64,000 bases of DNA from Rufibacter sp. XAAS-G3-1 (GTDB lineage Bacteria > Bacteroidota > Bacteroidia > Cytophagales > Hymenobacteraceae): the NCBI RefSeq assembly GCF_013623775.1, contig NZ_JABFAM010000003.1:1-64000 (forward strand), written 5' to 3'. The notes below the pieces were generated by a model. That model had not been told where the DNA came from. It did no database searches and saw nothing but the letters and a program-made list of their open reading frames with translations. Positions within the stretch are counted from its first letter, which is position 1; each line of letters starts with the position of its first letter. This document shows positions 5,817 through 19,902 of the stretch, piece by piece. The position numbers and the translations under genes were made by a program.

Positions 5817-7251
5817 TGGTATTTGATAATTGTGCTTCTCTATCTAGCTTAGGCCCCAAGAAAATAAAGGCAAAGGAAACAAATAGAATCATAGAAGACG
5901 GAAACATATTCATAATCTCGTTTCCATAACTGCTTATGATAATTCCTGTGAAGCCTGCAGTAAGAGCAGTCAATTTAAATCGTAAACCTCTGTCTTTGGT
6001 ATTCCATACAATCCCACAGCTTTTCCCTATTATGTACATCATCATACTTATCCAAATCACGAAGCCTACAATGCCATACTCCGCCCAGACCTTTACCCAA
6101 TAACTATCTGGTGGAATAGAAGCAAGGTAAGTGCCAGAGTTGTACTTTACACCGGAATACCCCATGGCACCTACCCCACCTCCAAAAGGGCGTGACTGTA
6201 AGTAATCCTGAAGCTTCATTTGGTTACTTAACCTGATATTGAAGGAGGCATCGTTTGCGTTAAGGGCAGAACGCATCCTTCTTATTTCAAAGTGGCTTTC
6301 ACCTATGAAAGTAAACTTCAGGAAGCAAAACCCTACCACAGCAATTACAAGGGCTATTCCTATTACTTTAAGGTTCTTATTGATTAACAAAACTACTCCT
6401 AAGCCAACAAATAGCGTAAAAATAGCACCTCTAGTTCCTGAAATAGATTCACCATACAAGAAAGCAAGTGCGGCTAAACCACACAAAATTCTCTTCCACT
6501 TTTTAAAAGGCCCCAACGCTAACGTAAATGCAATTACAAACATCTGAGCCTGAGAAGCACCAAACTGGCTTGCATCTGAGTAGAATGAAAAAACACGTAA
6601 CTCTCCCCAAATTAGGTGGGTCAAATACCCATAAGTATCTAACCATTCAGATTCACCTGGAAACAATCCAAGGGTAATCTGTTTAATCCCGTTAGCCGTA
6701 GCCAACAGAGACATACAAATAAGAAGAATTAAAAATGTATTTAAGTCTTTTTTTGTATTGAAAATAACCATGCAAAGGGGCACAGTTAAAATCCAAAGCA
6801 GATGGTAGCGTACCTCAACCATCCAGCCCAGCAAACTAGAACCAGCTGGGTTAAATAATTCGAGAACATTTATCAGCATCCAGATTGCTCCAAGAACGCA
6901 GATTTCATTCCTAAGATATGACCAATCGTACTGCTTAGTAGTATGGAAAATAGCAGCCAACCAGGTAAGCACAAGTAAACCTTCAATAACATATAAGTAT
7001 TGAAAGTGTCCAATTTCTCTGGTAAATAAGATATAAATAAAGCAGTAGATAATGAAAGAGACAATACCTACTCTGGGCTCTCTGAAAATGGCATAAATAA
7101 AGGGTAAGGTAAGTAAAGCGGCTAGTAATAACCCTGGCAGCAGAAAACCAACCTGAGCTGTCAACCAGCCAATACCAATAGCAGCAATAACTACAAATGG
7201 TATTAAAAAGTATGATGTTCTTTTGTTTGAAGATGTTGCAATCTGCTCCAT
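5809..7251 (-). CDS. O-antigen ligase/polymerase (Wzy-like) integral membrane protein
   Basis: The 480-residue protein is almost wholly hydrophobic, with roughly 11-12 predicted membrane helices. The large periplasmic loop between about residues 320 and 390 contains RLSNQMKLQDYLQSRPFGGG, a pattern typical of WaaL/Wzy family proteins, where the conserved Arg and Gly-rich turn precede the loop. SISGTRGAIFTLFVG is the other conserved block. It probably polymerises lipid-linked repeat units in the periplasm, working with the Wzz-like protein encoded upstream. No flippase (Wzx) gene is visible in the window. Confidence 0.83.
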   Translation of the reverse strand: MEQIATSSNKRTSYFLIPFVVIAAIGIGWLTAQVGFLLPGLLLAALLTLPFIYAIFREPRVGIVSFIIYCFIYILFTREIGHFQYLYVIEGLLVLTWLAAIFHTTKQYDWSYLRNEICVLGAIWMLINVLELFNPAGSSLLGWMVEVRYHLLWILTVPLCMVIFNTKKDLNTFLILLICMSLLATANGIKQITLGLFPGESEWLDTYGYLTHLIWGELRVFSFYSDASQFGASQAQMFVIAFTLALGPFKKWKRILCGLAALAFLYGESISGTRGAIFTLFVGLGVVLLINKNLKVIGIALVIAVVGFCFLKFTFIGESHFEIRRMRSALNANDASFNIRLSNQMKLQDYLQSRPFGGGVGAMGYSGVKYNSGTYLASIPPDSYWVKVWAEYGIVGFVIWISMMMYIIGKSCGIVWNTKDRGLRFKLTALTAGFTGIIISSYGNEIMNMFPSSMILFVSFAFIFLGPKLDREAQLSNTNA

Positions 7252-7300
7252 GGAGATATATTCCTTTGTGCTATATAGTAAGTAACCGACTTTGCTTTAT

Positions 7301-7357
7301 TAGTCTCTTTCCACCACAGATTAACAACTTTATTGTTTCTGCGGTGGAAAGAGACTA
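7301..7357. repeat. Hairpin in the gap between co-polymerase and polymerase genes
   Basis: Arms TAGTCTCTTTCCACC.CAGA and TCTG.GGTGGAAAGAGACTA pair over about 19 bp with one mismatch and a 17-nt A+T-rich loop. It has no U-run on either side, so it is more likely an mRNA stability or processing element inside the polysaccharide transcript than a strong terminator. It could lower expression of downstream glycosyltransferases relative to the co-polymerase gene. Confidence 0.55.
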
Positions 7358-7383
7358 TATAAAAGTGTTTGGGGAGAAAGCTC

Positions 7384-9585
7384 TTATGCTTTTTCTAGAG
7401 CGGGGTAACTTTTAGGAGATGGAAGCACTTTCTGTTCCTGAAGAAAGCTATTAGGTCGTACTATTACCATTTCCTTTGCATCATCCTGATTTACTGAGCT
7501 AAGAACAGTTTCAATAGGCGCATTGGTAGCTTTTTGAATGCTCTCAAACATAGTTTTATCTGCCTGTTGCCAAACACGGTCTGCTTTTACCGTCAATAAA
7601 ACCAGATCTAGGTGTTTAAATAAAGATACGGGATAGGTATCTTCTAGTACTGCCGGAAACTCTACCAGAACTACGGCATTGTTCAGGTAATCAAATCCAG
7701 CTAAGTCACTTATGGAGGCATCTGTTAACACACCCTGAAGTGGAGCATAGAAATTGGTGTGGGCGTCAGGACTGATCATCCCCTTATGACTTTCAGGATA
7801 TAAGACCTGGGTTTCGATACCCATTGAAATCAGGTTACTAGCCAAAGCATTGCAAAGCTCGGTTTTGCCTTCACCTGACATGCTACTTAATACCCCCACT
7901 ACAAAAGGCCCTGAATTTGTTTTCTGCCCCATCTTAAGAATAAGCTGGCGGGCAAGATGGTCTTCGGCTCTTTGGGCAAGTTGTAAGTGCTTAGAGTTTG
8001 ACGTATCTGTGGCAGGCAAAATCCCAAAAACAGGATACTGCATTTTTCTGGCTGCAACAGAGGGCTTCCGTAATGATTGGTCTAGTAAAGCGTTGGCCAA
8101 TAAGGCTCCTAAGGTTAAGAGAAACACACTAAATGAACCGAACAGGACAAGAAGTAAACGTGTAAAGATGGCTGGGCTACTTGGCTGGAAAGGCGGATCA
8201 ACCACCTTAAGTTGTGAGGTAAGCTCAATATTCTGCTGGTTTAACTTACTTTCTTTTAATCCGTCTAATTGGGCCAAGTACTCCTTCTCCGCTAGATCTA
8301 CCTCTCTGATCAATCTCTTATTCTCTCCGCCCAAAGGCAAAAGTTTGGTATACTCTTGCGCATACTCTCCTTTTTGCTTGTTCACCAAACTCAATTTGCT
8401 TCTTAATTCCTCAACTAAGAAGGTAGCCCTAACCCAATCCGTTAGCACAGATCCCATTGGCATTCCTTCATTAGAACGGGTGTTGGCATAATGCTTATCA
8501 ACTGAGTTCAACATCTTTTCAGAAAGCTCATCGGCCTCATTCCTTAAAGCCGTCAGTCTGTTGGATTGAGCGCTACTGGTATTGCCTCTATTCAATAATT
8601 CAAGTTCAGCAATTTGCGTCTGGACATTTGAAAGCCTGTTTTTAAGCCTCAGCACTTCTTGGCTATACAAGTTTGGCACCCCTCTGGATTTCATGCTTTG
8701 CTCAAGGGAACGCAAAGTGGCCAGTGCTCCTGCGTATTCAGTCTCCAGATCATTGTACTTACCAAGTAAAGTATTCTTCTCAGAGGCAGTATTCTCCACT
8801 TGGGAGTTGTAATCAATAATTCCGTTTGCTTTTTGGAAAGCAAGCAAATTCGCTTCTGCTACTTTTAGCTTTTGTAATGAGTTATTAGAAGCAGTAGTAA
8901 AATAATCAACCACAGACTCAGATTGAGCAGTATGCAGATTCTTTTGCTTATCTATAAAAAGTTGGGTTAGAATCTCTAGTGCATTCTTACACAAAGCCGG
9001 ATCAGTAGAGGTAAAAGAAATTTGCAAGAGGTCACTATCACTAATCCGTTTAGCTTCAATCGCTGATTTAGTATCTTCAGAAGCTGACATTGCACCAGAA
9101 TAATCAAATTCATCTGAATGAAGAATGTCCCGGATCACGTTTTTCTTACTTACATTATAGTAACTAGACAAGTTCTGAGCTGTCTCTTTAACAGTTGCAC
9201 CTACTAATTTACTTTTGAGTGAGGCGGGTACGGCTTCCTGCAACTTTTCATAAGAGTTCTCTTTTACTACATTGGGGTCATGGGCTTTTAGCATCAGGTG
9301 AGAAGCTAAAAGATGAAAACCCAATTGTTTTCTGATATCCCTGGAGTCTATGATAGAGATTAAGTTAGCAAAAGCATTAACAGCTGCTTTGTGTTGGTTA
9401 TTATTTGCCGAAACGCTGTTAAGATCATACCCTGTTGCTATGCCGGTATAAATAGTGGTATAGGATGTATACTCATCATCATTATCTTTGACAAAGAAAT
9501 AGATAGATGCCGCAGTAACTGAAGTCACTGCAACGAGCAAAAACCAGTTACGGCGTATAATTTTAAAAATTTCTGTTAGTTTCAT
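7384..9585 (-). CDS. Wzz/GumC-type polysaccharide co-polymerase with degenerate P-loop domain
   Basis: The protein has 733 residues. A Wzz domain starts at the N-terminus (membrane helix about residues 14-32), a long periplasmic region with coiled coils covers about 200-450, a second membrane helix lies near 475-500, and the C-terminus (about 555-733) is a BY-kinase/CpsD-like P-loop domain. Walker A is recognisable (SSMSGEGKTE). The Walker A' region reads TQVLYPESHKG instead of a DxD-type strand, and Walker B reads VVLVEFP instead of the usual hydrophobic-D-x-P. No C-terminal tyrosine cluster is present (one Tyr near the end). It should control chain length or export; kinase activity is doubtful. 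Confidence 0.85.
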   Translation of the reverse strand: MKLTEIFKIIRRNWFLLVAVTSVTAASIYFFVKDNDDEYTSYTTIYTGIATGYDLNSVSANNNQHKAAVNAFANLISIIDSRDIRKQLGFHLLASHLMLKAHDPNVVKENSYEKLQEAVPASLKSKLVGATVKETAQNLSSYYNVSKKNVIRDILHSDEFDYSGAMSASEDTKSAIEAKRISDSDLLQISFTSTDPALCKNALEILTQLFIDKQKNLHTAQSESVVDYFTTASNNSLQKLKVAEANLLAFQKANGIIDYNSQVENTASEKNTLLGKYNDLETEYAGALATLRSLEQSMKSRGVPNLYSQEVLRLKNRLSNVQTQIAELELLNRGNTSSAQSNRLTALRNEADELSEKMLNSVDKHYANTRSNEGMPMGSVLTDWVRATFLVEELRSKLSLVNKQKGEYAQEYTKLLPLGGENKRLIREVDLAEKEYLAQLDGLKESKLNQQNIELTSQLKVVDPPFQPSSPAIFTRLLLVLFGSFSVFLLTLGALLANALLDQSLRKPSVAARKMQYPVFGILPATDTSNSKHLQLAQRAEDHLARQLILKMGQKTNSGPFVVGVLSSMSGEGKTELCNALASNLISMGIETQVLYPESHKGMISPDAHTNFYAPLQGVLTDASISDLAGFDYLNNAVVLVEFPAVLEDTYPVSLFKHLDLVLLTVKADRVWQQADKTMFESIQKATNAPIETVLSSVNQDDAKEMVIVRPNSFLQEQKVLPSPKSYPALEKA

Positions 9586-10336: not shown

Positions 10337-11500
10337 TTAAACATTTTCTTTTTGAAACATTGCAGGAACAGTTTTTAGAAGGATATACAGGTCTTTCCTG
10401 AAAGAGAACTTCTGGGCATATTCAATATCCAAGGCCTTCCGCTCAGACTCTGACATATTTCCTTTGCCACGCTTACTTACCTGCCACAAACCGGTGATGC
10501 CGGCTGGCGCAATAAATCGGGCGGCGTATTCGTCAGTAGTTATTTTTTCAGCTTCGTAAATGGGCAATGGTCTATTACCTACAATAGACATGTCCCCTCT
10601 GAGCACATTATACAATTGCGGTAATTCATCAATGCTGGTATTTCTAAGAAACATTCCTAAACGGGTAATTCTTGGATCATTCGCAATCTTTATAAAGGCA
10701 GCACCGGCCTTATTCTTCTTTGATTCTATATAGTGTTGCTCACAAATCAGTTTTCCGCGCTCGTCTATCAATTGGTTTGCACATCCTGAACCGCTTTCTA
10801 AGCAGGCAGAACAAAGCGTATATCCTTCTTCTTCCTTGCTTTCACCAACCGGAACCTGGTACTGATTGAATACCTTGATGGAGTCAAGCAGTTGATCTGC
10901 ATCTTGGCGCATAGATCTAAATTTCCAGAACTTAAATATCTTGAAGCCAGTCCCTACTCTGTAAGAATAGTAAAAAGCAGGGCCTTTAGATTCAAGTTTA
11001 ATGAGAAGCGTTATCACTAACAGAATGGGAGAGAGACAGATCAAGGCTGTTGAAGCCACCACTATATCAAATACTCTTTTGCCCAGTGGATATTTGTAAG
11101 CGAAAACACTATTACTTTTCGGGTCAATGTCCATTTTTTTGGCTTTAGCCAAATAGTTTATTCTTGTGATTAATTTTTCCTTGTCTGGATTTTGGTAAAA
11201 AATATCAGAGACCCCTGCAGACATTAACATTCTTTGCAAGGTGGGCGGAACCGGACTATTTGCTAACCAGATCATTGGAATAGTCAACCCCCATTTATCC
11301 TTTACGGCTCTTAGTAAATTAACCCCTAAAGGGGAGCCTGGCATTGCCGCATTTATGATAATATCATAGTGCGCTCCATTTTCCAGTGATTGTAAAAAGA
11401 GTTTAGGGTTATCAAAATGCGTTATCTCTATGTTCTGGCCAAACTCAGCCTCAAACTTAATAGCTTCCTGACAGTCCGGTGAAAGATAAATAACCCGCAT
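10337..11500 (-). CDS. Initiating sugar transferase fused to a pseudo-receiver domain
   Basis: The protein has 387 residues. Residues 1-120 have the length and strand pattern of a response-regulator receiver, but the phosphoacceptor position is Asn50 (IIINAAMPG) and the usual KP(F/Y) switch is replaced by YQNPD. Residues ~130-387 are a WbaP/PglC-like phosphoglycosyl transferase: KRVFDIVVASTALICLSPIL is the membrane re-entrant helix, KFWKFRSM and NDPRITRLG are catalytic blocks, and IDELPQLYNVLRGDMSIVGNR and GITGLWQVSKRG close the domain. A Cys-rich insertion (C230, C233, C240, C253, H256) interrupts the catalytic core. It should start the repeat unit on undecaprenyl phosphate. Confidence 0.88.
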   Translation of the reverse strand: MRVIYLSPDCQEAIKFEAEFGQNIEITHFDNPKLFLQSLENGAHYDIIINAAMPGSPLGVNLLRAVKDKWGLTIPMIWLANSPVPPTLQRMLMSAGVSDIFYQNPDKEKLITRINYLAKAKKMDIDPKSNSVFAYKYPLGKRVFDIVVASTALICLSPILLVITLLIKLESKGPAFYYSYRVGTGFKIFKFWKFRSMRQDADQLLDSIKVFNQYQVPVGESKEEEGYTLCSACLESGSGCANQLIDERGKLICEQHYIESKKNKAGAAFIKIANDPRITRLGMFLRNTSIDELPQLYNVLRGDMSIVGNRPLPIYEAEKITTDEYAARFIAPAGITGLWQVSKRGKGNMSESERKALDIEYAQKFSFRKDLYILLKTVPAMFQKENV

Positions 11501-11512
11501 GTTCTTAATACC

Positions 11513-11902
11513 TTAAGAAATCTTTACCCTTTTCAGAACATTCTTAATTCTTATCTCTAATTCTTCGGGATTGAAAGGCTTTATCATATAGTCATCTGCA
11601 CCGCTCTTGAGACAAAGAATCTTATTTTTTGACTCTTCTTTACCAGACAACATTACCAATGGGATATCTCTAAATAGCGTGCTTGCCCTTAATTGTCTAA
11701 TAAAATCTAACCCATTCATGTAGGGCATTTCAAAGTCAGCAACTATAGCATCTACATGGTAACCTTCTTCTAACCAAGCCATAGCTTCTTTCCCATTCGA
11801 TTTTACCACCACCTGATAAGCTTTGGAGAAGTAATGTTCCAGTATCAATCCTATGGTAGGTTCATCGTCTACAATTAGTATACACTGTTTCATTTTTATC
11901 AT
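11513..11902 (-). CDS. Single-domain response regulator (CheY-like)
   Basis: The protein has 129 residues and consists only of a receiver domain. It has the acidic pair (IVDDEP), the phosphoacceptor D56 in VADFEMPYMNG, the conserved Ser in MLSGKEE and the Lys of MIKPFNPEEL, so it looks phosphorylatable. There is no output domain. The next gene, 12 bp downstream, encodes the sugar transferase with the pseudo-receiver, so a protein-protein role at the initiation step is plausible. An in-frame ATG at 11893 is an alternative start. It is the first gene of the cluster. Confidence 0.9.
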   Translation of the reverse strand: MIKMKQCILIVDDEPTIGLILEHYFSKAYQVVVKSNGKEAMAWLEEGYHVDAIVADFEMPYMNGLDFIRQLRASTLFRDIPLVMLSGKEESKNKILCLKSGADDYMIKPFNPEELEIRIKNVLKRVKIS

Positions 11903-11916
11903 TTTTAGATAGACTA

Positions 11917-11932
11917 TGAAATTACCATGCCA
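11917..11932 (-). promoter_or_regulatory. Possible sigma-54 promoter for the polysaccharide cluster
   Basis: Read on the minus strand the site is TGGCATGGTAATTTCA, against the sigma-54 consensus TGGCAC-N5-TTGCA. Spacing is exact and the -24 GG is present; the -12 element reads TTTCA, missing the usual G of GC. The site ends 15 bp before the ATG at 11902 (24 bp before the alternative ATG at 11893), so the short leader would fit better with the later start. A sigma-54 activator is encoded at 14967-16349. The -12 mismatch keeps confidence low. Confidence 0.35.
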
Positions 11933-12220
11933 ATCTCAATAATATCTTAAATAATAGCATTTGAGTGAAATATCTAAAACTTAGCGCCAACCATATTCCC
12001 ATTATGGGAAGCACTACTCCATTCTGGGAGCAGTTTGATTAGATAGAACTTTACATGAATATTAGGTAAACAGTATATCCAAAGACCTGCAGCCGTTTTA
12101 AGAAGAAATGGAGAGTATAGAGCAATGCATGACAGGTATAATGTTTGTGTTTTATTTTATATCTGGATAAAAAGAAGTAATTTATTTTAAATTGATAAAA
12201 TAACCTAAGCCTCAAATATA

Positions 12221-12426: not shown

Positions 12427-14307
12427 TTACTTAATAGTTTCTAATTCCTTAGAGAAAACATCAATTACTTTTTGGGTTGTATCTTTTACAATTACTATTA
12501 ATTTGGTTAACTCAGAAAGGTTTGTTCTCGTGTTTGAAAGCTCTTCCACTTTTTTCATTGCTTCGGCAGCTTTAACAACTTTGATGTTGCCATAGGTTGA
12601 TTTCAGGCTATGGGCAATGAGTGCGACCGTTTCCCATTCCTGCCGATGAACAGCATGGGACAACTTTGAAATCTGACCTGGCACTATGTCTATAAATAAC
12701 TTCTGCATTTTCCTGATAAACACAGCGTCATCTGCCATGTTTCCTAGTCCCGAGAAATCAAACAATGGAGGCTCCTGTTCTATCTCCTTATTCCGTATTT
12801 GCTGCTGCTCTCTTGCATAATGCCCGGTATTCTTGGAAATACAAAGGTATAGATCAAAAGCATGGTACGGCTTTCTCAAATAATCAGTAAAGCCTACTTC
12901 TCTGTACTTTTCAATATCCGTATCATTGGTGCTAGACGTAAATGCCACAATGGGGGTAAACTGATTCAGACTACCGGATTTACGAATCAATGCGACTGTC
13001 TCAAAGGCATTAACCCCAGGATTTTCTGTATCTACCAATATTAGATCATAGCTTACGTGTGCTGCCAGCTTAACTCCTTCTTCCCCGCTCTTAGCTATGG
13101 CCACGGAGGTGTTCCAGTGTTGGATTTGGCGTTTGATTAGTTCCTGGCTGCTTTCACTGGCATCAACTAAGAGTAGATTTAACGTATCTGATTGCTCAGA
13201 ATGGAGCACCTTATCATACTGTGGGCTTTTATTTTGCTCAGCAAGTAGATTCTGCATAATAGGAAAAGGAAGGATAAACTCAATACTTTTTCCTTGGCCG
13301 TCTGATTCCTCAAGCCACACTTTACCACCCTGTAAGTCAATAAGTTTTTTGCAGGTATACACCCCTAAATCAATGCCATTCCTTTTGTATTTGTTGTGCG
13401 CCTGCTGCGTATTCTCTGAGTTGAATAACTTTGATAAGACCTCGGCATTCTGATCAAGACCTATGTTATGAATTGAAAACTGCAGGTACAACGTATCTTC
13501 TAGTTTCTCTTTCTGAAAAACCGATAATTGCACCTCTTTGGTCTTTGTATACCTTATGGCACATTTGATAATCTTAACCAGGACTAAATCTAAGTAAACA
13601 GGATTAACTTCTACAAGAGGCAGTTTTACCAATGGTTCTGTAAACTTAATATTTACCCCCTGTTCTGCGGCTTTAGAAGTTAAGGATTGAATAATCCTTC
13701 CCATGAAAGGGACAACATCCACAACTTCGGAAGTTGAATCCAGGACTCCTGCTTCAACTCTGGCATACTCAAGAACATCTTTGGGGACATCTAAAAGGTA
13801 ATCAGAAATGGACAGAACCGAATTCAAATAACGTTTTTGATCTTTGCTTATGAAAGTCTGCTTGAGAAGCCTAACCAAGCTAATGATGGCATTGACTGGA
13901 GCCTCTAATTCACTGCTTACATCTGCAAGGAATTTCTCTTTGGCCGCAAAGGAGTCTTCGGCCACCTGGATGGTTTCCTTAAGATTTGTAATTTCTGAAG
14001 AGGTAGAGAACAGACAACGCTCCCCATTTTGCTGAACAATCGGCTTTTTTACGGTGAGGTACCAGGCGCCGCTCCCGTCTGCGAGTTTATAGAATTCCTC
14101 TATTTCGCTTATCTCATCTGAGCAAAGCACTTCCAGATCTCTATCACAGGAGAAATCAAAATCTAATGCTCCTTTTTCAAGCAGTTGTGCCAGGCTACAT
14201 CCATTCAATAAAGCATAAGCGGTGTTAGCCCATATGATTCTCCCTTGTGAATCTTTTATATAGGTTGGGTTGGGGCTCTCCTCGAAAATCTGATCAATAA
14301 ACTGCAT
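12427..14307 (-). CDS. PAS / degenerate histidine-kinase / receiver / HPt protein
   Basis: I start at the ATG at 14307 (MQFIDQIFEESPNPTYIKDS); the open frame reaches 14427 but that extension has no conserved sequence. Length is 626 residues. A PAS domain (1-110) is followed by a HisKA-like helix in which the phosphoacceptor His is Ser132 (DVSSELEAP instead of xMSHELRTP). The ATPase-like domain has KCAIRYT at the N-box, HNIGLD for DxGxG and GIDLGV for GTGLGL, so catalysis looks lost. The receiver (about 405-525; LVDTENPG, LRKPY) and the HPt domain (about 540-620; H566 in AHSLKS) are intact. It may pass phosphate from another kinase. Confidence 0.85.
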   Translation of the reverse strand: MQFIDQIFEESPNPTYIKDSQGRIIWANTAYALLNGCSLAQLLEKGALDFDFSCDRDLEVLCSDEISEIEEFYKLADGSGAWYLTVKKPIVQQNGERCLFSTSSEITNLKETIQVAEDSFAAKEKFLADVSSELEAPVNAIISLVRLLKQTFISKDQKRYLNSVLSISDYLLDVPKDVLEYARVEAGVLDSTSEVVDVVPFMGRIIQSLTSKAAEQGVNIKFTEPLVKLPLVEVNPVYLDLVLVKIIKCAIRYTKTKEVQLSVFQKEKLEDTLYLQFSIHNIGLDQNAEVLSKLFNSENTQQAHNKYKRNGIDLGVYTCKKLIDLQGGKVWLEESDGQGKSIEFILPFPIMQNLLAEQNKSPQYDKVLHSEQSDTLNLLLVDASESSQELIKRQIQHWNTSVAIAKSGEEGVKLAAHVSYDLILVDTENPGVNAFETVALIRKSGSLNQFTPIVAFTSSTNDTDIEKYREVGFTDYLRKPYHAFDLYLCISKNTGHYAREQQQIRNKEIEQEPPLFDFSGLGNMADDAVFIRKMQKLFIDIVPGQISKLSHAVHRQEWETVALIAHSLKSTYGNIKVVKAAEAMKKVEELSNTRTNLSELTKLIVIVKDTTQKVIDVFSKELETIK

Positions 14308-14361: not shown

Positions 14362-14542
14362 GAACCTGCTTAGAGTTTTTGAGATGCCCATTTCTGGGAA
14401 ACTCTCCCCGCGCAAGCGTCCGCTCACACCAGCGTTTTCAGGCTACTTTCAGAAAAACAGCCCGGAAACCGAAAGCATCTGCTAACCTATACACAAGCAG
14501 GCGCTTGCGCCAGATCTAAAACGGAAAACTCTAAAATACCTC
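14362..14542 (+). repeat. Third, shorter copy of the ~202-bp element
   Basis: It starts GAACCTGCTTAGAGTTTTT and ends with the near complement AAAACTCTAAAATACCTC. Inside lie the CGCAAGCGTCCGCT block, a hairpin (GTTTTCAGGCTACTTTC / GAAAAACAGCCCGGAAAC) and CGCTTGCGCCAGA near the right end. It lies in the leader region of the kinase-like gene, 55 bp upstream of its ATG, so it may be transcribed with it. Confidence 0.6.
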
Positions 14543-14709
14543 AAGTTTTACTTTATCATTGAAATGAAAGCAGATGGTATAATTTGATTCAATTCTAGCA
14601 CAAATGGCATTCGTTATAAAGGTATTTTCAGGCTACTTTCTCAAAAACAGCTTAAAAACACACAAGCAAGTTTGCAAAGTAGTGCCTTTGGCTTAGGAGA
14701 ATGCCACTT

Positions 14710-14871
14710 AGAGCTAGTTTAAATTTCATCTTTGCGCTGCAAACGGCCATAGAAAGAACCTGCGTTCGCCTTTTCCTCGCACCGTAGCGCTGCTACGCTG
14801 CTCAAAAAACGCTTTAGCAGAACCTTTCTCTAGCCATTTTCGCTGGCAAACCTCAAATTTAAACAAGCTCT
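14710..14871 (+). repeat. 162-bp fold-back repeat, copy 1
   Basis: The element is bounded by AGAGCTAGTTTAAATTT and AAATTTAAACAAGCTCT. The interior has AAGAACCTGCGTTC near the left and GCAGAACCTTTCTC near the right, which also pair imperfectly, with ACCGTAGCGCTGCTACG at the middle. The whole unit can fold back on itself. It lies downstream of the sigma-54 activator gene. Similar units occur at 19450, 21992 and 58973. The rest of 14543-14966 shows one more small hairpin near 14630-14660 and no gene. Confidence 0.8.
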
Positions 14872-14966
14872 TGAAAGAAGTTATATATCACGTACCTTAA
14901 AGCCTTATTACCAGCGAGCCGTCATTTTATTTAGCAGATTAGAAAGCCCCACTGACATCTATCGCC

Positions 14967-16349
14967 TTACTGGAATTTCTTCTGTTCAGGGACAAGCACG
15001 TCTCCTTTTTGAATCATTCTGTAAATAGTGGATTTCCCTACTTTGAGTTTCTCTGCTACGTAGACAACATTATAGTTGTACTTATCTAAATACTTCTGAA
15101 CCGTCTCATAGATGTATTCATCTAGCGTTTTTTCTTCTGAAGAGGCTGCCGTAACAGTTTTCTGCAGTTGAATATCATCACTTGTCACAAGTTTTGAATC
15201 AGATAACACAGCGGCTAGCTCCACAACTGCCTTTAACTCCCGCACATTGCCCGGGTATTGGTGGCTTAAAAGCTTTTTCTGCGCATCAGAACTAAACGTT
15301 TTCTCTTCTAAATCATTCTGGGAGCAGAAGTCTTTTAGAACCCTGTTGGCAATCAACAAGATATCATGTCCCCTTTCTCGTAGTGGCGGTAAATGAATCT
15401 GGATGCCAAGCAATCGGTAGAATAAATCCTCTCTAAAGTTACCTTTCTTTACTTCGTCCAATAAATTCCGGTGGGTAGCAGTAATGATTCTGACATCTAC
15501 GGGAATACTTTTGTTAGACCCCACTGGGGTTACCTCCCTTTCCTGTAAAACCCGCAACAGCTTGGATTGCAGGTGAAAACTCATCTCCCCAATCTCATCC
15601 AGGAAGAGGGTGCCTCCGTTGGCCTCTTCAAACTTACCTACCCTGCGGGCCGTGGCACCGGTAAAAGCTCCTTTCTCATGCCCAAAGAGTTCACTTTCCA
15701 ACAACTCAGAGGGCAGCGCAGCAATGTTCACCGCTACAAAGGGCATCTTTGATCTTTTAGAGTTCAGGTGAATGGCTTTCGCGATCAGTTCTTTCCCTGT
15801 TCCGGTTTCGCCGGTAACCGTAACGTTAATGTTATTTGCGGCGGCTTTTTCAACTAAATGGTACACCTTTTTGATGGGCTCAGAAGACCCCACCAACTCA
15901 CTTCCCAAGGTATACTTTTGGTTAACCTCTTTCCGGAGTACCTCTATCTCTTGCTTGAGCGTTCTATTATGCTTGATTTTCTCAACGATGCTCCAAAGCC
16001 GGTCTTTGGTTTCCTCGTTTTTGACAATATAGTCATAGGCTCCCATCTTCATGAGACTTACGGCCTTTCTGATGTCTTCCTGACCAGAGATGATGATAAT
16101 GTATGAATTGGGGCTCTTTTCCAGGATTTGCCGCAAAACCTCCTCACCTGAGACAGAAGGTAAGTGATAGTCTAGCGTGATGATGGTGGGAGATTCTGAT
16201 AAACGGCCCAAAAACTCATCTACGGAGTTGAAAACCTCCACCTGATGATCTGGGTTAGTGGACAGATGGTAACTTAAGAACTGTGAGTACCAAAGATCAT
16301 CTTCCAGCACAAAGATTTTTGCAGAAGAGTCATTTTGCAAACTAGACAT
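14967..16349 (-). CDS. Sigma-54-dependent response regulator (NtrC family)
   Basis: The protein has 460 residues. An N-terminal receiver (about 10-125) has [12 protein letters not shown] (phosphoacceptor Asp), IIISGQED and the Lys in YIVKNEE. The AAA+ domain (about 150-375) carries Walker [16 protein letters not shown], the sigma-54 contact loop GAFTGA, Walker [13 protein letters not shown] and the arginine region [11 protein letters not shown]-terminal Fis-type helix-turn-helix ([19 protein letters not shown]) binds enhancer DNA. It should activate RpoN promoters on phosphorylation. Its neighbours are the two kinase-like genes, and its most obvious target is the polysaccharide cluster. Confidence 0.95.
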
Positions 16350-16868: not shown

Positions 16869-18950
16869 CTACGTTTTGGCTAGGACCTTTTTAGAGTTTA
16901 CGTGTTGAAGTACCTTGTTAAATAGGTCTTGGGGAACAAAGGGCTTTGTTAAGTAATCATTTACCCCAGCTTCCAGAATTCTTTTACGCTCTTCTTCACT
17001 GGCATTGGCCGTCAACGCAATTACGGGCAAGCTATACCCGGCTTCACGCAATCTGGAAACGGTTTGGAAGCCATCTAAATGAGGCATATACAGATCCATT
17101 AGCACTAGGTCATACTTTGTAGAATCTATCTTTGACAACGCCGACAGCCCGTCATCTGCAGTCTCTACTTCTGCGTGCCAGTTGGTAAGGAGCTTTGTGG
17201 CCACGGTCTTGTTTATGTCATTGTCATCCACCACCAGAATCTTTACTCCCCTCAGTTTGGTGCATGGGATCTTATTGCCTCCAATCTTGGGAAGGGTGAC
17301 CAAAGAAGACTGCGGCTTAACAAACCTTAACCGGACGCTAAACGAGGAACCTTCTCCTGGCACGCTTTTTAACTGGATAGCCCCTTTGTGAAGATCCACC
17401 AGGTTTTTGGTGATAGACAGGCCTAGTCCGGTACCACCGTATTGTCTGTGGGTAGAGGTGCTTGCCTGGGTAAAGCTTTCAAATATACTGCTTTGCTTGT
17501 CTACTGGTATACCAATACCGGTATCTGAGACGGTAAAGTCTAACACCCATTCCTGGCTGTTTTGATAGACCACGTCTACCCCTAATTTCACAGAACCGTG
17601 CTCAGTGAATTTGATGGCGTTACTTAACAAGTTATTCAGAATCTGCATCAATCTCACAGGGTCACCGGCTACTTCGGCGGGCGTGCGCGGATCAATGGCA
17701 AGGTCAAAGTTGATTCTCTTTTCCATTGAGCGCAAGCAAAGCGCCTGGTGAGTGTTCTTGAGCAGATCTTTTAAATGGAAGTTCACCTTTTCTAACTCAA
17801 CTTTGCCGGCCTCCATCTTAGAGTAATCAAGCGTATTGTTGATTAAGGCAAGCAAGTTCTGAGAAGAGAAATGAATGGAGTTCAGGTTTTGCTTATGCTC
17901 CTCTTTCAAACCATTCTCCTGCAACAGAAGATAGGTTAATCCCATAATGGCATTGAGAGGAGTCCTGATTTCGTGACTCATATAGGAAATAAACTCCGCC
18001 TTGCGTTGGGTGGCATGTTCTGCTACCACCTTTTCTGCCATCAGAGCCCTTTCTTTCTCAACGTGTTCTGTCACATTCTGGATAGCACCTACCAGCTTAG
18101 AGACCTTTGCGTTTTTTACAACAGCCTTCCCCTTCACTCTTAGCCAGGAAGAATCATCCCCGCTTGGCACTTCTACCAAACAGTTTAGTTCTTCCCCATC
18201 TATTATCAAGTTATCCCAGGCTTGGGCCAATCTTACCTGGCTTTCTTTGGTGAGGAACGGCATGAAAGAATCAAAGTCCTCTAGTGTGATAGAAGCGGGA
18301 ATCCCAAGCAGTTCATACACATACTCTGTGCAGAAGAACGCCTCCGTCTCAACTGAATACTCCCAGAAACCAGCCTCCAGCAAAGAGCTCGCCTCTGCGC
18401 TCAAGGCACCTGCCCGTTGCCGATTACTTAAGTTTTCATCTGGTGTGTCGGGCAACCGCACCCTGTCTACGGCCTTTGGCAAAGACCTAACAGGAACAGC
18501 ATTGTCGCTTTCGTATTTTTGCAGGCAGTAAGGTGCCGGAATATTTAATGTGGCGTGCACTTTGGTTGCTTCTTTGTTTACAATCTTACCTCTTACAGAA
18601 GTATCCCTAAAAACATAAAAACCATGAACCGAGGTAGAAATATCCTGGAAAGATGCTCCCAAACCTATTGACTCACTCACCCCTATCATCCTTCTCTTCC
18701 AAAGCTTATCTGTAGAAAGAGACAACAAGGCCATACCCTGCTCTTTGGTTAAATCAACCATAGCCCTAAAGAATCGCTTCAGGGCATTTAAGGAAAGAAA
18801 GGAAGGAGAAATCCCGAAAATGGTGTCTACCTCCTCTAATTGCTTAGAATTCCAAGAATCTGTAGCAGAACTTGTGAATTGCAGGGCCTGCCACTCATTC
18901 ATACTGCGAGATTCATTTACGGTGATGGGAGCAGACTTCATAAACAACAC
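16869..18950 (-). CDS. Hybrid histidine kinase (PAS-HisKA-HATPase-REC)
   Basis: The protein has 693 residues from the ATG at 18950; ATGs at 18941 and 18902 are alternatives. The N-terminal ~200 residues are unassigned and a PAS-like domain with a PAC segment lies at about 195-310. The kinase core is complete: H326 in YMSHEIRTPLNAI, N-box LLSNAIKFTEHG, DTGIGIP and GGTGLGLSI. The C-terminal receiver has VVDDNDIN, LVLMDLYMPHLDG and YLTKPF. No membrane helix is seen, so it is likely a cytosolic sensor. It is the intact kinase nearest the HPt protein and the NtrC-type regulator, and could feed both. Confidence 0.93.
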   Translation of the reverse strand: MLFMKSAPITVNESRSMNEWQALQFTSSATDSWNSKQLEEVDTIFGISPSFLSLNALKRFFRAMVDLTKEQGMALLSLSTDKLWKRRMIGVSESIGLGASFQDISTSVHGFYVFRDTSVRGKIVNKEATKVHATLNIPAPYCLQKYESDNAVPVRSLPKAVDRVRLPDTPDENLSNRQRAGALSAEASSLLEAGFWEYSVETEAFFCTEYVYELLGIPASITLEDFDSFMPFLTKESQVRLAQAWDNLIIDGEELNCLVEVPSGDDSSWLRVKGKAVVKNAKVSKLVGAIQNVTEHVEKERALMAEKVVAEHATQRKAEFISYMSHEIRTPLNAIMGLTYLLLQENGLKEEHKQNLNSIHFSSQNLLALINNTLDYSKMEAGKVELEKVNFHLKDLLKNTHQALCLRSMEKRINFDLAIDPRTPAEVAGDPVRLMQILNNLLSNAIKFTEHGSVKLGVDVVYQNSQEWVLDFTVSDTGIGIPVDKQSSIFESFTQASTSTHRQYGGTGLGLSITKNLVDLHKGAIQLKSVPGEGSSFSVRLRFVKPQSSLVTLPKIGGNKIPCTKLRGVKILVVDDNDINKTVATKLLTNWHAEVETADDGLSALSKIDSTKYDLVLMDLYMPHLDGFQTVSRLREAGYSLPVIALTANASEEERKRILEAGVNDYLTKPFVPQDLFNKVLQHVNSKKVLAKT

Positions 18951-19449
18951 ATTTATTTATTCCTTGTTCAAATATACAATAAAATATTAGTTCTGTTATT
19001 TTTTTGCATATTAATTTGAATTAAAGACTAGGAAAGCTATGGTTTTTCAGCTATTTCAAGCCTTTAATATTAAAAAATTTATATTAACATAACACCCAAT
19101 ATAAAGCTTCCCTGTATTTCAGTTTGAAATATTTGTTTCTATCTGCTCGTTTGCCTTGAATTATTGCGATCTTTCGTCTTTAATGCGCGCTAGCTTTAAC
19201 AATTCAACAAAGATTATATTAAAGTATTACCTTAAGCCTTCCTTGTGGAAGTACGCCAAAGCTCAATTGTGAATTTTAGTTGACTTTTCAAGAGTTAGGG
19301 GCACTTCAAGCACCAGGGCAACCGCGCCTTCAAAGTTTAACCTCTTCTCTCCTGAAAGCTACCCAAAGGGCCTGGCTTCGGCGAACCCTTATAAACGGTA
19401 CCGGCACAAAAGGTTTCACTTATCTCTGTCTAAAAGTAGAGTTTATGTT
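18951..19449. other. Intergenic leader region, no gene recognised
   Basis: About 500 bp, very A+T-rich from 18955 to 19240. It must hold the promoter of the hybrid kinase gene, but I cannot pick one confidently. The plus-strand frame from 19280 has no family resemblance and looks fortuitous. Confidence 0.4.
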
Positions 19450-19613
19450 AAAGCCTGTTTAAGCTTTGGCTTTTGCGCGGCAAACGGCCATAGAGAGAAC
19501 CTGCGTTCGCACTATTATCACCTTCGTAGCGCTGGCAGGCAGCTCGCAAAACGCTTCCGCAGAACCTTGCCCTGGCCATTTTCGCCCGCAAACCTGATAT
19601 TTGAACATTCTCT
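19450..19613 (+). repeat. 162-bp fold-back repeat, diverged copy 2
   Basis: Same order of blocks as copy 1: GCCTGTTTAAGC at the left, CGGCAAACGGCCATAGAGAGAACCTGCGTTCGC, then CGTAGCGCTGG, CGCTTCCGCAGAACCTTGCCCTGGCC and a right end ATATTTGAACATTCTCT. Its termini are the most diverged of the four full-length copies. It lies just downstream of the tRNA-Lys pair. Confidence 0.7.
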
Positions 19614-19650
19614 GCGCGCCGAGTTTCCAATGTACTGGAGTAGCCTAAAC

Positions 19651-19683
19651 AAAAAAGCCTCTTATTCCAAGAATAAGAGGCTT
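19651..19683 (-). terminator. Intrinsic terminator after distal tRNA-Lys
   Basis: Arms AAGCCTCTTATTC and GAATAAGAGGCTT (13 bp, loop of 3) are followed on the minus strand by a run of six U. It lies 7 bp beyond the 3' end of the tRNA gene. Confidence 0.85.
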
Positions 19684-19689
19684 CAGAAG

Positions 19690-19762
19690 TGATCCCGCTG
19701 GGATTCGAACCCAGGACCCATACATTAAAAGTGTATTGCTCTACCAGCTGAGCTACAGAATC
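19690..19762 (-). tRNA. tRNA-Lys (anticodon UUU), distal copy
   Basis: The minus strand folds as a full cloverleaf: acceptor GATTCTG pairs with CGGGATC (two G-U pairs), the D arm is GCTC AGCTGGTA GAGC, the anticodon loop is CTTTTAA (anticodon TTT), and the T arm is CTGGG TTCGAAT CCCAG. The discriminator is A and CCA is not encoded. It reads Lys AAA/AAG codons. The sequence is identical to the neighbouring copy. Confidence 0.97.
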
Positions 19763-19782
19763 ATGACTTAAGAGAAGGCGGT

Positions 19783-19819
19783 AAAAAAAGCCTTTCCGGG
19801 GATTAACCGGAAAGGCTTT
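19783..19819 (-). terminator. Terminator-like hairpin between the two tRNA-Lys genes
   Basis: Arms AAAGCCTTTCCGG and CCGGAAAGGCTTT (13 bp, loop of 7) are followed on the minus strand by a run of seven U. It would end or attenuate the transcript after the promoter-proximal tRNA. Confidence 0.8.
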
Positions 19820-19829
19820 GGTGATCAAG

Positions 19830-19902
19830 TGATCCCGCTGGGATTCGAACCCAGGACCCATACATTAAAAGTGTATTGCTCTACCAGCTGAGCTACAGAA
19901 TC
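19830..19902 (-). tRNA. tRNA-Lys (anticodon UUU), proximal copy
   Basis: Same cloverleaf, anticodon TTT and discriminator A as the distal copy, with every base of the 72-nt core the same; CCA is not encoded. The two genes are 67 bp apart, and each is followed by its own hairpin. The pair looks like a recent tandem duplication or one kept uniform by gene conversion. Confidence 0.97.

Follow-up and report, generated by a model that had tools for sequence, protein, structure and literature searches.

The window, the whole 64,000-nucleotide stretch of Rufibacter sp. XAAS-G3-1 DNA that we analysed, holds a gene for a histidine-kinase-like protein (here the pseudokinase) whose adjoining genes look like slime-making (exopolysaccharide-type) genes (Table 1). 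The usual gene order is (hybrid kinase, NtrC-type regulator), pseudokinase gene, response regulator and sugar transferase, followed by genes for an outer-membrane-type protein, a Wzc-like protein and glycosyltransferases. We found no published description of this locus in a non-exhaustive search of the open-access literature. The Wzc-like protein (7384-9585, minus strand) has, by eye, a Walker A-like stretch and no evident Walker A', and may be a tyrosine pseudokinase. Elsewhere in the window, two tandem tRNA-Lys (ttt) genes lie at 19689-19902 on the minus strand, overlapped by a 137-aa open reading frame (19448-19861) that is probably not a gene.

Table 1. Features of the locus and their coordinates in the window.
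Feature	Positions	Strand	Basis or remark
Pseudo-histidine kinase, putative phosphotransfer protein, 626 aa	12427..14307	minus	PAS - dead HisKA - dead HATPase - damaged REC - HPt
PAS domain, residues 8-110	13978..14286	minus	Pfam; kept in two PAS-HPt relatives
HisKA/DHp domain, residues 122-187	13747..13944	minus	Pfam; motifs aligned; two long helices in model
HATPase_c domain, residues 237-349	13261..13599	minus	Pfam; motifs aligned; model
Receiver domain, residues 379-486	12850..13173	minus	Pfam; active-site residues aligned
HPt domain, about residues 514-626 by homology, 534-594 by Pfam	12430..12768	minus	Pfam, homology, model
Single-domain response regulator, to which the HPt may mainly pass its phosphate	11513..11902	minus	Pfam, synteny
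NtrC-type sigma-54 activator, receiver-bearing; may be a second acceptor and the transcriptional output	14967..16349	minus	Pfam, synteny
Candidate partner hybrid histidine kinase	16869..18950	minus	HisKA-HATPase-REC, weak PAS match, all catalytic motifs present
Exopolysaccharide-type sugar transferase	10337..11500	minus	Pfam, alignment, model
Sigma-54-like element TTGGCATGGTAATTTCAT	11916..11933	minus	about 30 bases before the single-domain regulator gene
Palindrome TTCCCATAATGGGA, candidate activator-binding site	11997..12010	minus	upstream of the sigma-54-like element

The 626 residues of the pseudokinase are counted from the methionine codon at 14307; the mechanically listed reading frame opens at a GTG 40 codons before it. 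Using Pfam, we found HisKA (35.5 bits), HATPase_c (42.8 bits) and receiver (REC; 53.3 bits) domains, all over their cut-offs. The Hpt family (PF01627) was borderline in the protein scan (23.6 against a cut-off of 24.6) and over the same cut-off in the genome search, where the locus scored 27.3. In the predicted structure (mean pLDDT 78.3, pTM 0.40), the DHp domain forms two long helices (residues 107-149 and 155-186), the CA fold with its strands is still predicted, with low confidence at residues 301-310, and both the receiver and an HPt helical bundle (helices at 528-624) are present. By fold and profile the protein belongs with HisKA and HATPase_c: kinase structures were among its fold matches, and fold and sequence searches alike returned histidine kinases, GacS and RetS included. 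Its domain order is that of the ArcB- and BarA-type unorthodox hybrid kinases, ArcB itself reading PAS-HisKA-HATPase-REC-HPt. ArcB was also the best NCBIfam match (171 bits, residues 5-589), but this score is far under the family cut-off of 838 and the catalytic residues are lost in the pseudokinase.

The earlier note on this DNA had reported serine in place of the H-box histidine, cysteine in place of the key N-box asparagine and changes in both glycine boxes, and alignment bears these readings out. The histidine position of HisKA holds Ser132 (codon 13912-13914), the second N-box asparagine is Cys249 (codon 13561-13563), and the glycine boxes read NIGLD (G1) and GIDLG (G2). The DxGxG aspartate is replaced by Asn281, and the residues examined as marks of a histidine kinase (H-box histidine, N-box, DxGxG, glycine boxes) are not retained. 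HisKA domains without the histidine have been put at 0.9% (722 of 76,471) in PMC12632262. As the note had also said, His566 of the HPt is intact (codon 12610-12612), giving a helical domain with a phosphorylatable histidine. Its description of the receiver as intact did not hold: Asp382, the phosphoacceptor Asp426, Thr457 and Lys479 are retained, but the second acidic metal-binding residue (DD2) is Ala383 (codon 13159-13161), leaving four of the five active-site residues of PF00072. According to the account in PMC12632262, DD2 is in direct contact with the metal, and about 80% of pseudo-receivers have a non-acidic residue there.

Kinase motifs and the HPt across Hymenobacteraceae

Orthologues were sought in 118 related genomes and in 204 genomes of the family, 46 of which gave a match at E <= 1e-68, in 47 places. 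The final set comprised 48 rows from 47 genomes, each spanning HisKA to HPt, with L063 added from the 118-genome search; the rows called full-length include several from the Hymenobacter group that match only from about residue 105, their N-terminal part being divergent. The rows were assigned to the Rufibacter group (g1, Rufibacter and Sabulibacter; n = 9, the XAAS-G3-1 protein included), the Pontibacter group (g3; n = 7), g4 (n = 3) and the Hymenobacter group (g6 and the g5 locus; n = 29), and 47 neighbourhoods were compared besides that of the pseudokinase itself. Of the 48 rows, all found through the pseudokinase itself, 44 have both the single-domain regulator and the sugar transferase among the neighbours recovered (the misses being L078, L080, L091 and L099). 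The transferase occurs in 10 of the 16 genomes of the genus-level group, nine of them with a full-length row and one (R. immobilis, G005) with a PAS-HPt protein.

Every kinase motif is kept in all 29 Hymenobacter-group rows. In the Rufibacter group, the histidine, the N-box asparagine, the DxGxG aspartate, G1 and G2 are each kept in 0 of 9 rows (the glycine boxes by the criterion that we adopted), so that the substitutions of the pseudokinase belong to a loss of all kinase motifs that its full-length Rufibacter-group orthologues share. The three g4 rows likewise keep none of the kinase motifs. Among the seven Pontibacter-group rows, one retains the histidine, six the N-box asparagine, five G1 and four G2; three of them (L052:8631-10496, L076:8820-10685 and L077:8213-10072) have lost the histidine while keeping all ATPase motifs, an intermediate stage, and L075 has kept the histidine and lost G2. 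In total, the phosphoacceptor histidine is lost in 18 of the 19 rows of g1, g3 and g4; set against the 0.9% of HisKA domains at large, this count and the 9/9 of the Rufibacter group exceed chance, although neither represents independent events, because the rows are related.

The HPt histidine and the receiver phosphoacceptor aspartate are each present in all 48 full-length rows. DD2 is kept in 45, its three losses all falling in the Rufibacter group (the XAAS-G3-1 protein, L046 and L048), where six of the nine rows have all five receiver residues; the receiver lysine is kept in 47 and lost in L078. None of the 48 rows contains an internal stop.

A search of the family by the neighbouring sugar transferase recovered 57 of the 204 genomes and 13 loci outside the first orthologue set. 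At 11 of these 13 we found a shorter protein with an HPt, whose histidine is readable in every case (the Pfam scan covered six of the eleven); no HPt was seen at L147, nor at L139 before the contig edge. L137 (459 aa) has receiver and Hpt matches, and neither it nor L138 (589 aa) has a HisKA or HATPase match. Only PAS and HPt, with no receiver match, make up the 311-aa protein of L126 (Rufibacter immobilis) and the 257-aa protein of L148. At seven Hymenobacter-group loci (L140-L146), the genes for the regulator and the transferase are preceded by one for a free HPt of 130-168 aa. In each of the four of these loci examined in detail, two glycosyltransferase-looking genes (by eye) lie between.

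These variants make up a graded series at one exopolysaccharide-type locus: an intact kinase; loss of the histidine with the ATPase motifs retained; loss of every motif; deletion of the ATPase domain; PAS and HPt alone; and a free HPt. The PAS-HPt gene of R. immobilis need not descend from the Rufibacter form; its descent is uncertain because its regulator and transferase group with those of the Pontibacter-group loci L138 and L148 (SH-aLRT 84). The L148 locus, which shares genome G242 with the full-length row L080, has its PAS-HPt gene (7138-7908) in the operon and in addition a full-length decayed copy (14440-16278), which adjoins its own hybrid kinase and NtrC-type gene (Pontibacter-group). 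In the XAAS-G3-1 genome, Pfam gave five Hpt matches, three in frames with an intact H-box and one CheA-like (by eye); the HPt of the pseudokinase alone among these five shares its protein with no working kinase, with the proviso that Pfam may miss others.

Constraint on the protein and the adjoining kinase

Substitutions in the pseudokinase point to purifying selection. Across the nine Rufibacter-group rows, pN/pS was 0.16 in the DHp (0.157), 0.22 in the PAS, 0.25 in the HPt, 0.26 in the REC and 0.30 in the CA domain, with 0.54 and 0.69 in the linkers, ratios that are rough because synonymous sites are saturated. The CA domain of the partner kinase gave 0.15, calculated from seven of the nine species (L044 and L045 left out). 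Within the Rufibacter group no domain is better conserved than the DHp (77% identity), a possible sign of a role in dimerisation or as an inhibitor. We also took as reference those positions with at least 90% identity among the 29 intact rows and asked what fraction of them the Rufibacter group keeps: 0.32 of 48 in the CA domain, 0.50 of 25 in the DHp, 0.68 of 44 in the REC and 0.92 of 17 in the HPt. Judged by these comparisons, constraint has left the kinase core and stayed on the HPt, and the apparently dead domains are still constrained.

An intact hybrid kinase adjoins the pseudokinase gene in Rufibacter and in most readable Pontibacter loci. None of the 18 copies of this candidate partner examined at Rufibacter-group and Pontibacter-group loci has lost an H, N, G1, G2 or receiver residue, the H-box reading SHEVRT in L044 and L045, and Pfam found no Hpt match in the XAAS-G3-1 copy. 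Of the 30 stretches whose kinase is lost, 20 contain a separate kinase frame, against 2 of the 29 whose kinase is intact; L080 and L148, both among the 20, overlap in one genome, and both intact-kinase cases are weak hits cut by an edge. The raw table yields a Fisher p of 1.9e-6 with kinship ignored. On the tree of regulator and transferase, intact versus lost needs only two changes and so offers at most one or two contrasts, and a phylogenetically controlled test, with one or two independent pairs, gave no significance. Exceptions within the stretch read are g4, with a separate kinase in none of three stretches, and the free-HPt loci, with one in two of seven; it is also absent from the stretches of L075 and L078 (Pontibacter-group), both near contig ends.

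The output side of the locus

The N-terminus of the sugar transferase (about residues 1-124) is predicted to adopt a receiver fold, with a TM-score of about 0.8 to single receivers (target-normalised). Its phosphoacceptor site is asparagine here and aspartate in 4 of 16 aligned rows (by eye); the domain is therefore a pseudo-receiver at least in Rufibacter sp. XAAS-G3-1. The catalytic part is poorly modelled. Within its insert, C230, C233, C240 and C253 are invariant in all 16 rows and possibly metal-binding.

The sigma-54-like element agrees with the consensus at 10-11 of 12 bases in all nine full-length Rufibacter-group loci, with a -12 base that differs from consensus in this group. Transcription starting 12 bases past the element would begin only about 5 bases ahead of the start codon listed for the single-domain regulator gene, which is oddly close, and the true start codon may be further on. 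Such a promoter is not general in the family: 12 of 58 upstream stretches score at least 9 of 12, nine of these 12 being from the Rufibacter group, and the PAS-HPt species of that group scores 8. Both arms of the palindrome are exact in six of the nine Rufibacter-group loci, with one base changed in one arm in the other three, and the sequence has a single exact match genome-wide. Together, the sigma-54-like element and the palindrome suggest that the NtrC-type regulator may drive the operon.

The earlier note had sent phosphate to both regulators. For the NtrC-type protein this is possible, but beside the pseudokinase gene a close copy of its gene was seen only at loci of the Rufibacter group and at some of the Pontibacter group. 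The single-domain regulator, standing alone as a receiver next to exopolysaccharide-type genes, has a counterpart in EpsW of Myxococcus xanthus, described as an orphan response regulator for exopolysaccharide and a substrate of the kinase DifE (PMC4671073), although it scores 64.6 against a cut-off of 200.

A candidate phosphorelay and its relation to known systems

The reading that we favour, and consider probable, is that the pseudokinase is a former unorthodox hybrid kinase that now serves as a phosphotransfer protein between the adjoining kinase and the regulator or regulators. The partner kinase would autophosphorylate its own histidine and pass the phosphate to its own receiver aspartate, from which His566 of the pseudokinase would take it. 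His566 would in turn phosphorylate the single-domain regulator and possibly also the NtrC-type activator, which would switch the sigma-54-like promoter before the operon. Tuning or dimerisation of the relay would fall to the PAS domain together with the dead DHp/ATPase region. With a receiver already present in the partner kinase, that of the pseudokinase would be redundant, which would explain its decay.

This relay is the part of the earlier note that fared best, given that motif loss is group-wide, the HPt persists, an intact kinase with no Hpt match of its own adjoins, and the single-domain regulator and the transferase accompany 44 of the 48 rows. The scaffold or phosphate sink that the note offered in the same breath finds weaker support: the receiver on which a sink would depend is damaged in the pseudokinase and absent from its PAS-HPt relatives, in which HisKA and HATPase domains are not recognisable either.

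The strong conservation of the DHp in the Rufibacter group, together with the RetS kinase-region structures that appeared among both the sequence and the fold matches, could instead mean that the dead DHp/ATPase region binds the neighbouring kinase, either inhibiting or activating it in the manner of RetS with GacS, and that the HPt is secondary. We regard this as unlikely: L126 and L148 keep PAS and HPt, and L140-L146 the HPt alone, without a HisKA or HATPase match, and it is the HPt rather than the DHp that has held on to the positions conserved in intact kinases (0.92 against 0.50).

Nor do we give much weight to a drain on the pathway, in which receiver and HPt of the pseudokinase would act as a phosphate sink. 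Both phosphorylatable residues are there for it, and two-thirds of the Rufibacter-group rows (6/9) keep all five receiver residues; the loss of DD2 from the XAAS-G3-1 protein and two others of the nine, and the PAS-HPt forms without a receiver match, make it quite improbable. It is very improbable that the protein is still a kinase in another way, phosphorylated in trans or using another nucleotide site. A trans-acting stage may have existed, as L052, L076 and L077 with their lost histidine and kept ATPase motifs would allow, and the CA fold is still predicted in the pseudokinase; there, however, the N-box asparagine, the DxGxG aspartate and both glycine boxes are altered, and model confidence is low at 301-310. 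A pseudogene or a sequencing error, to which the joint loss of several conserved residues might point, was rejected as scarcely conceivable: the losses are common to all nine full-length Rufibacter-group rows, which rules out sequencing error, all 48 frames are open, and pN/pS is well below 1 in every domain.

Spo0B is a phosphotransfer protein resembling histidine kinases, and both it and ChpT use the histidine of a DHp-like domain, whereas in the phosphotransfer protein proposed here the DHp histidine is lost and a separate C-terminal HPt carries the phosphorylatable one. ChpT, too, is described as a phosphotransfer protein that resembles histidine kinases (PMC3433190). DivL (PMC9430884) and RetS (PMC4866733) are presented as kinase-like regulators that act on a partner kinase; in contrast, the Hymenobacteraceae series preserves the HPt rather than the kinase-like core.

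The closest functional likeness is to RcsD (YojN), in which an HPt is joined to a PAS-like domain and a histidine kinase region that is inactive, and which stands between the hybrid kinase RcsC and RcsB (RcsC to RcsD to RcsB; PMC7418988, PMC13317618), in a system implicated in capsule control (PMC3762810). The motifs of the pseudokinase fit this pattern, a dead kinase region with an HPt and a separate intact hybrid kinase nearby. RcsD is, however, described as membrane-bound, with a domain in the periplasm and another named ABL (PMC13317618). At its N-terminus the pseudokinase has a PAS domain according to Pfam and the model, and a receiver occupies the place of the ABL. The NCBIfam RcsD model gave 60.9 bits against a cut-off of 634, and no ABL family appeared in the Pfam matches up to E = 1; on these two grounds we file the protein apart from RcsD. 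RcsC and RcsD may stem from duplication of an ancestor (PMC7418988). An origin of the partner kinase by duplication of the pseudokinase gene is not supported: in the genomes listed, its match to the pseudokinase family is no better than its matches to other hybrid kinases, which score equally high or higher. We infer that the pseudokinase works like RcsD, and its origin is probably independent.

A broader claim, which we advance only tentatively and think somewhat doubtful, is that an RcsD-type phosphorelay for exopolysaccharide evolved independently in Hymenobacteraceae, with the series from kinase to free HPt preserved in living species. In Rufibacter, the HPt would then serve both the NtrC-type activator, acting at the sigma-54 promoter, and the single-domain regulator, which would dock on the receiver-like domain of the transferase. 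If this is true, one relay would control both transcription and enzyme activity.

Accounts of how simpler kinases give rise to multi-step phosphorelays usually reason from end products such as RcsD. In the Hymenobacteraceae genomes, a single conserved locus presents intact, partly decayed, PAS-HPt and free-HPt versions, which makes the order of loss directly testable. The hand-over to a partner kinase is directly testable as well, and many of these bacteria have named genomes. The relay would parallel the dead-kinase HPt protein in capsule control of enterobacteria, probably with an independent origin, and the intermediate stages in related bacteria offer an unusual step-by-step view of a signalling protein changing its job.
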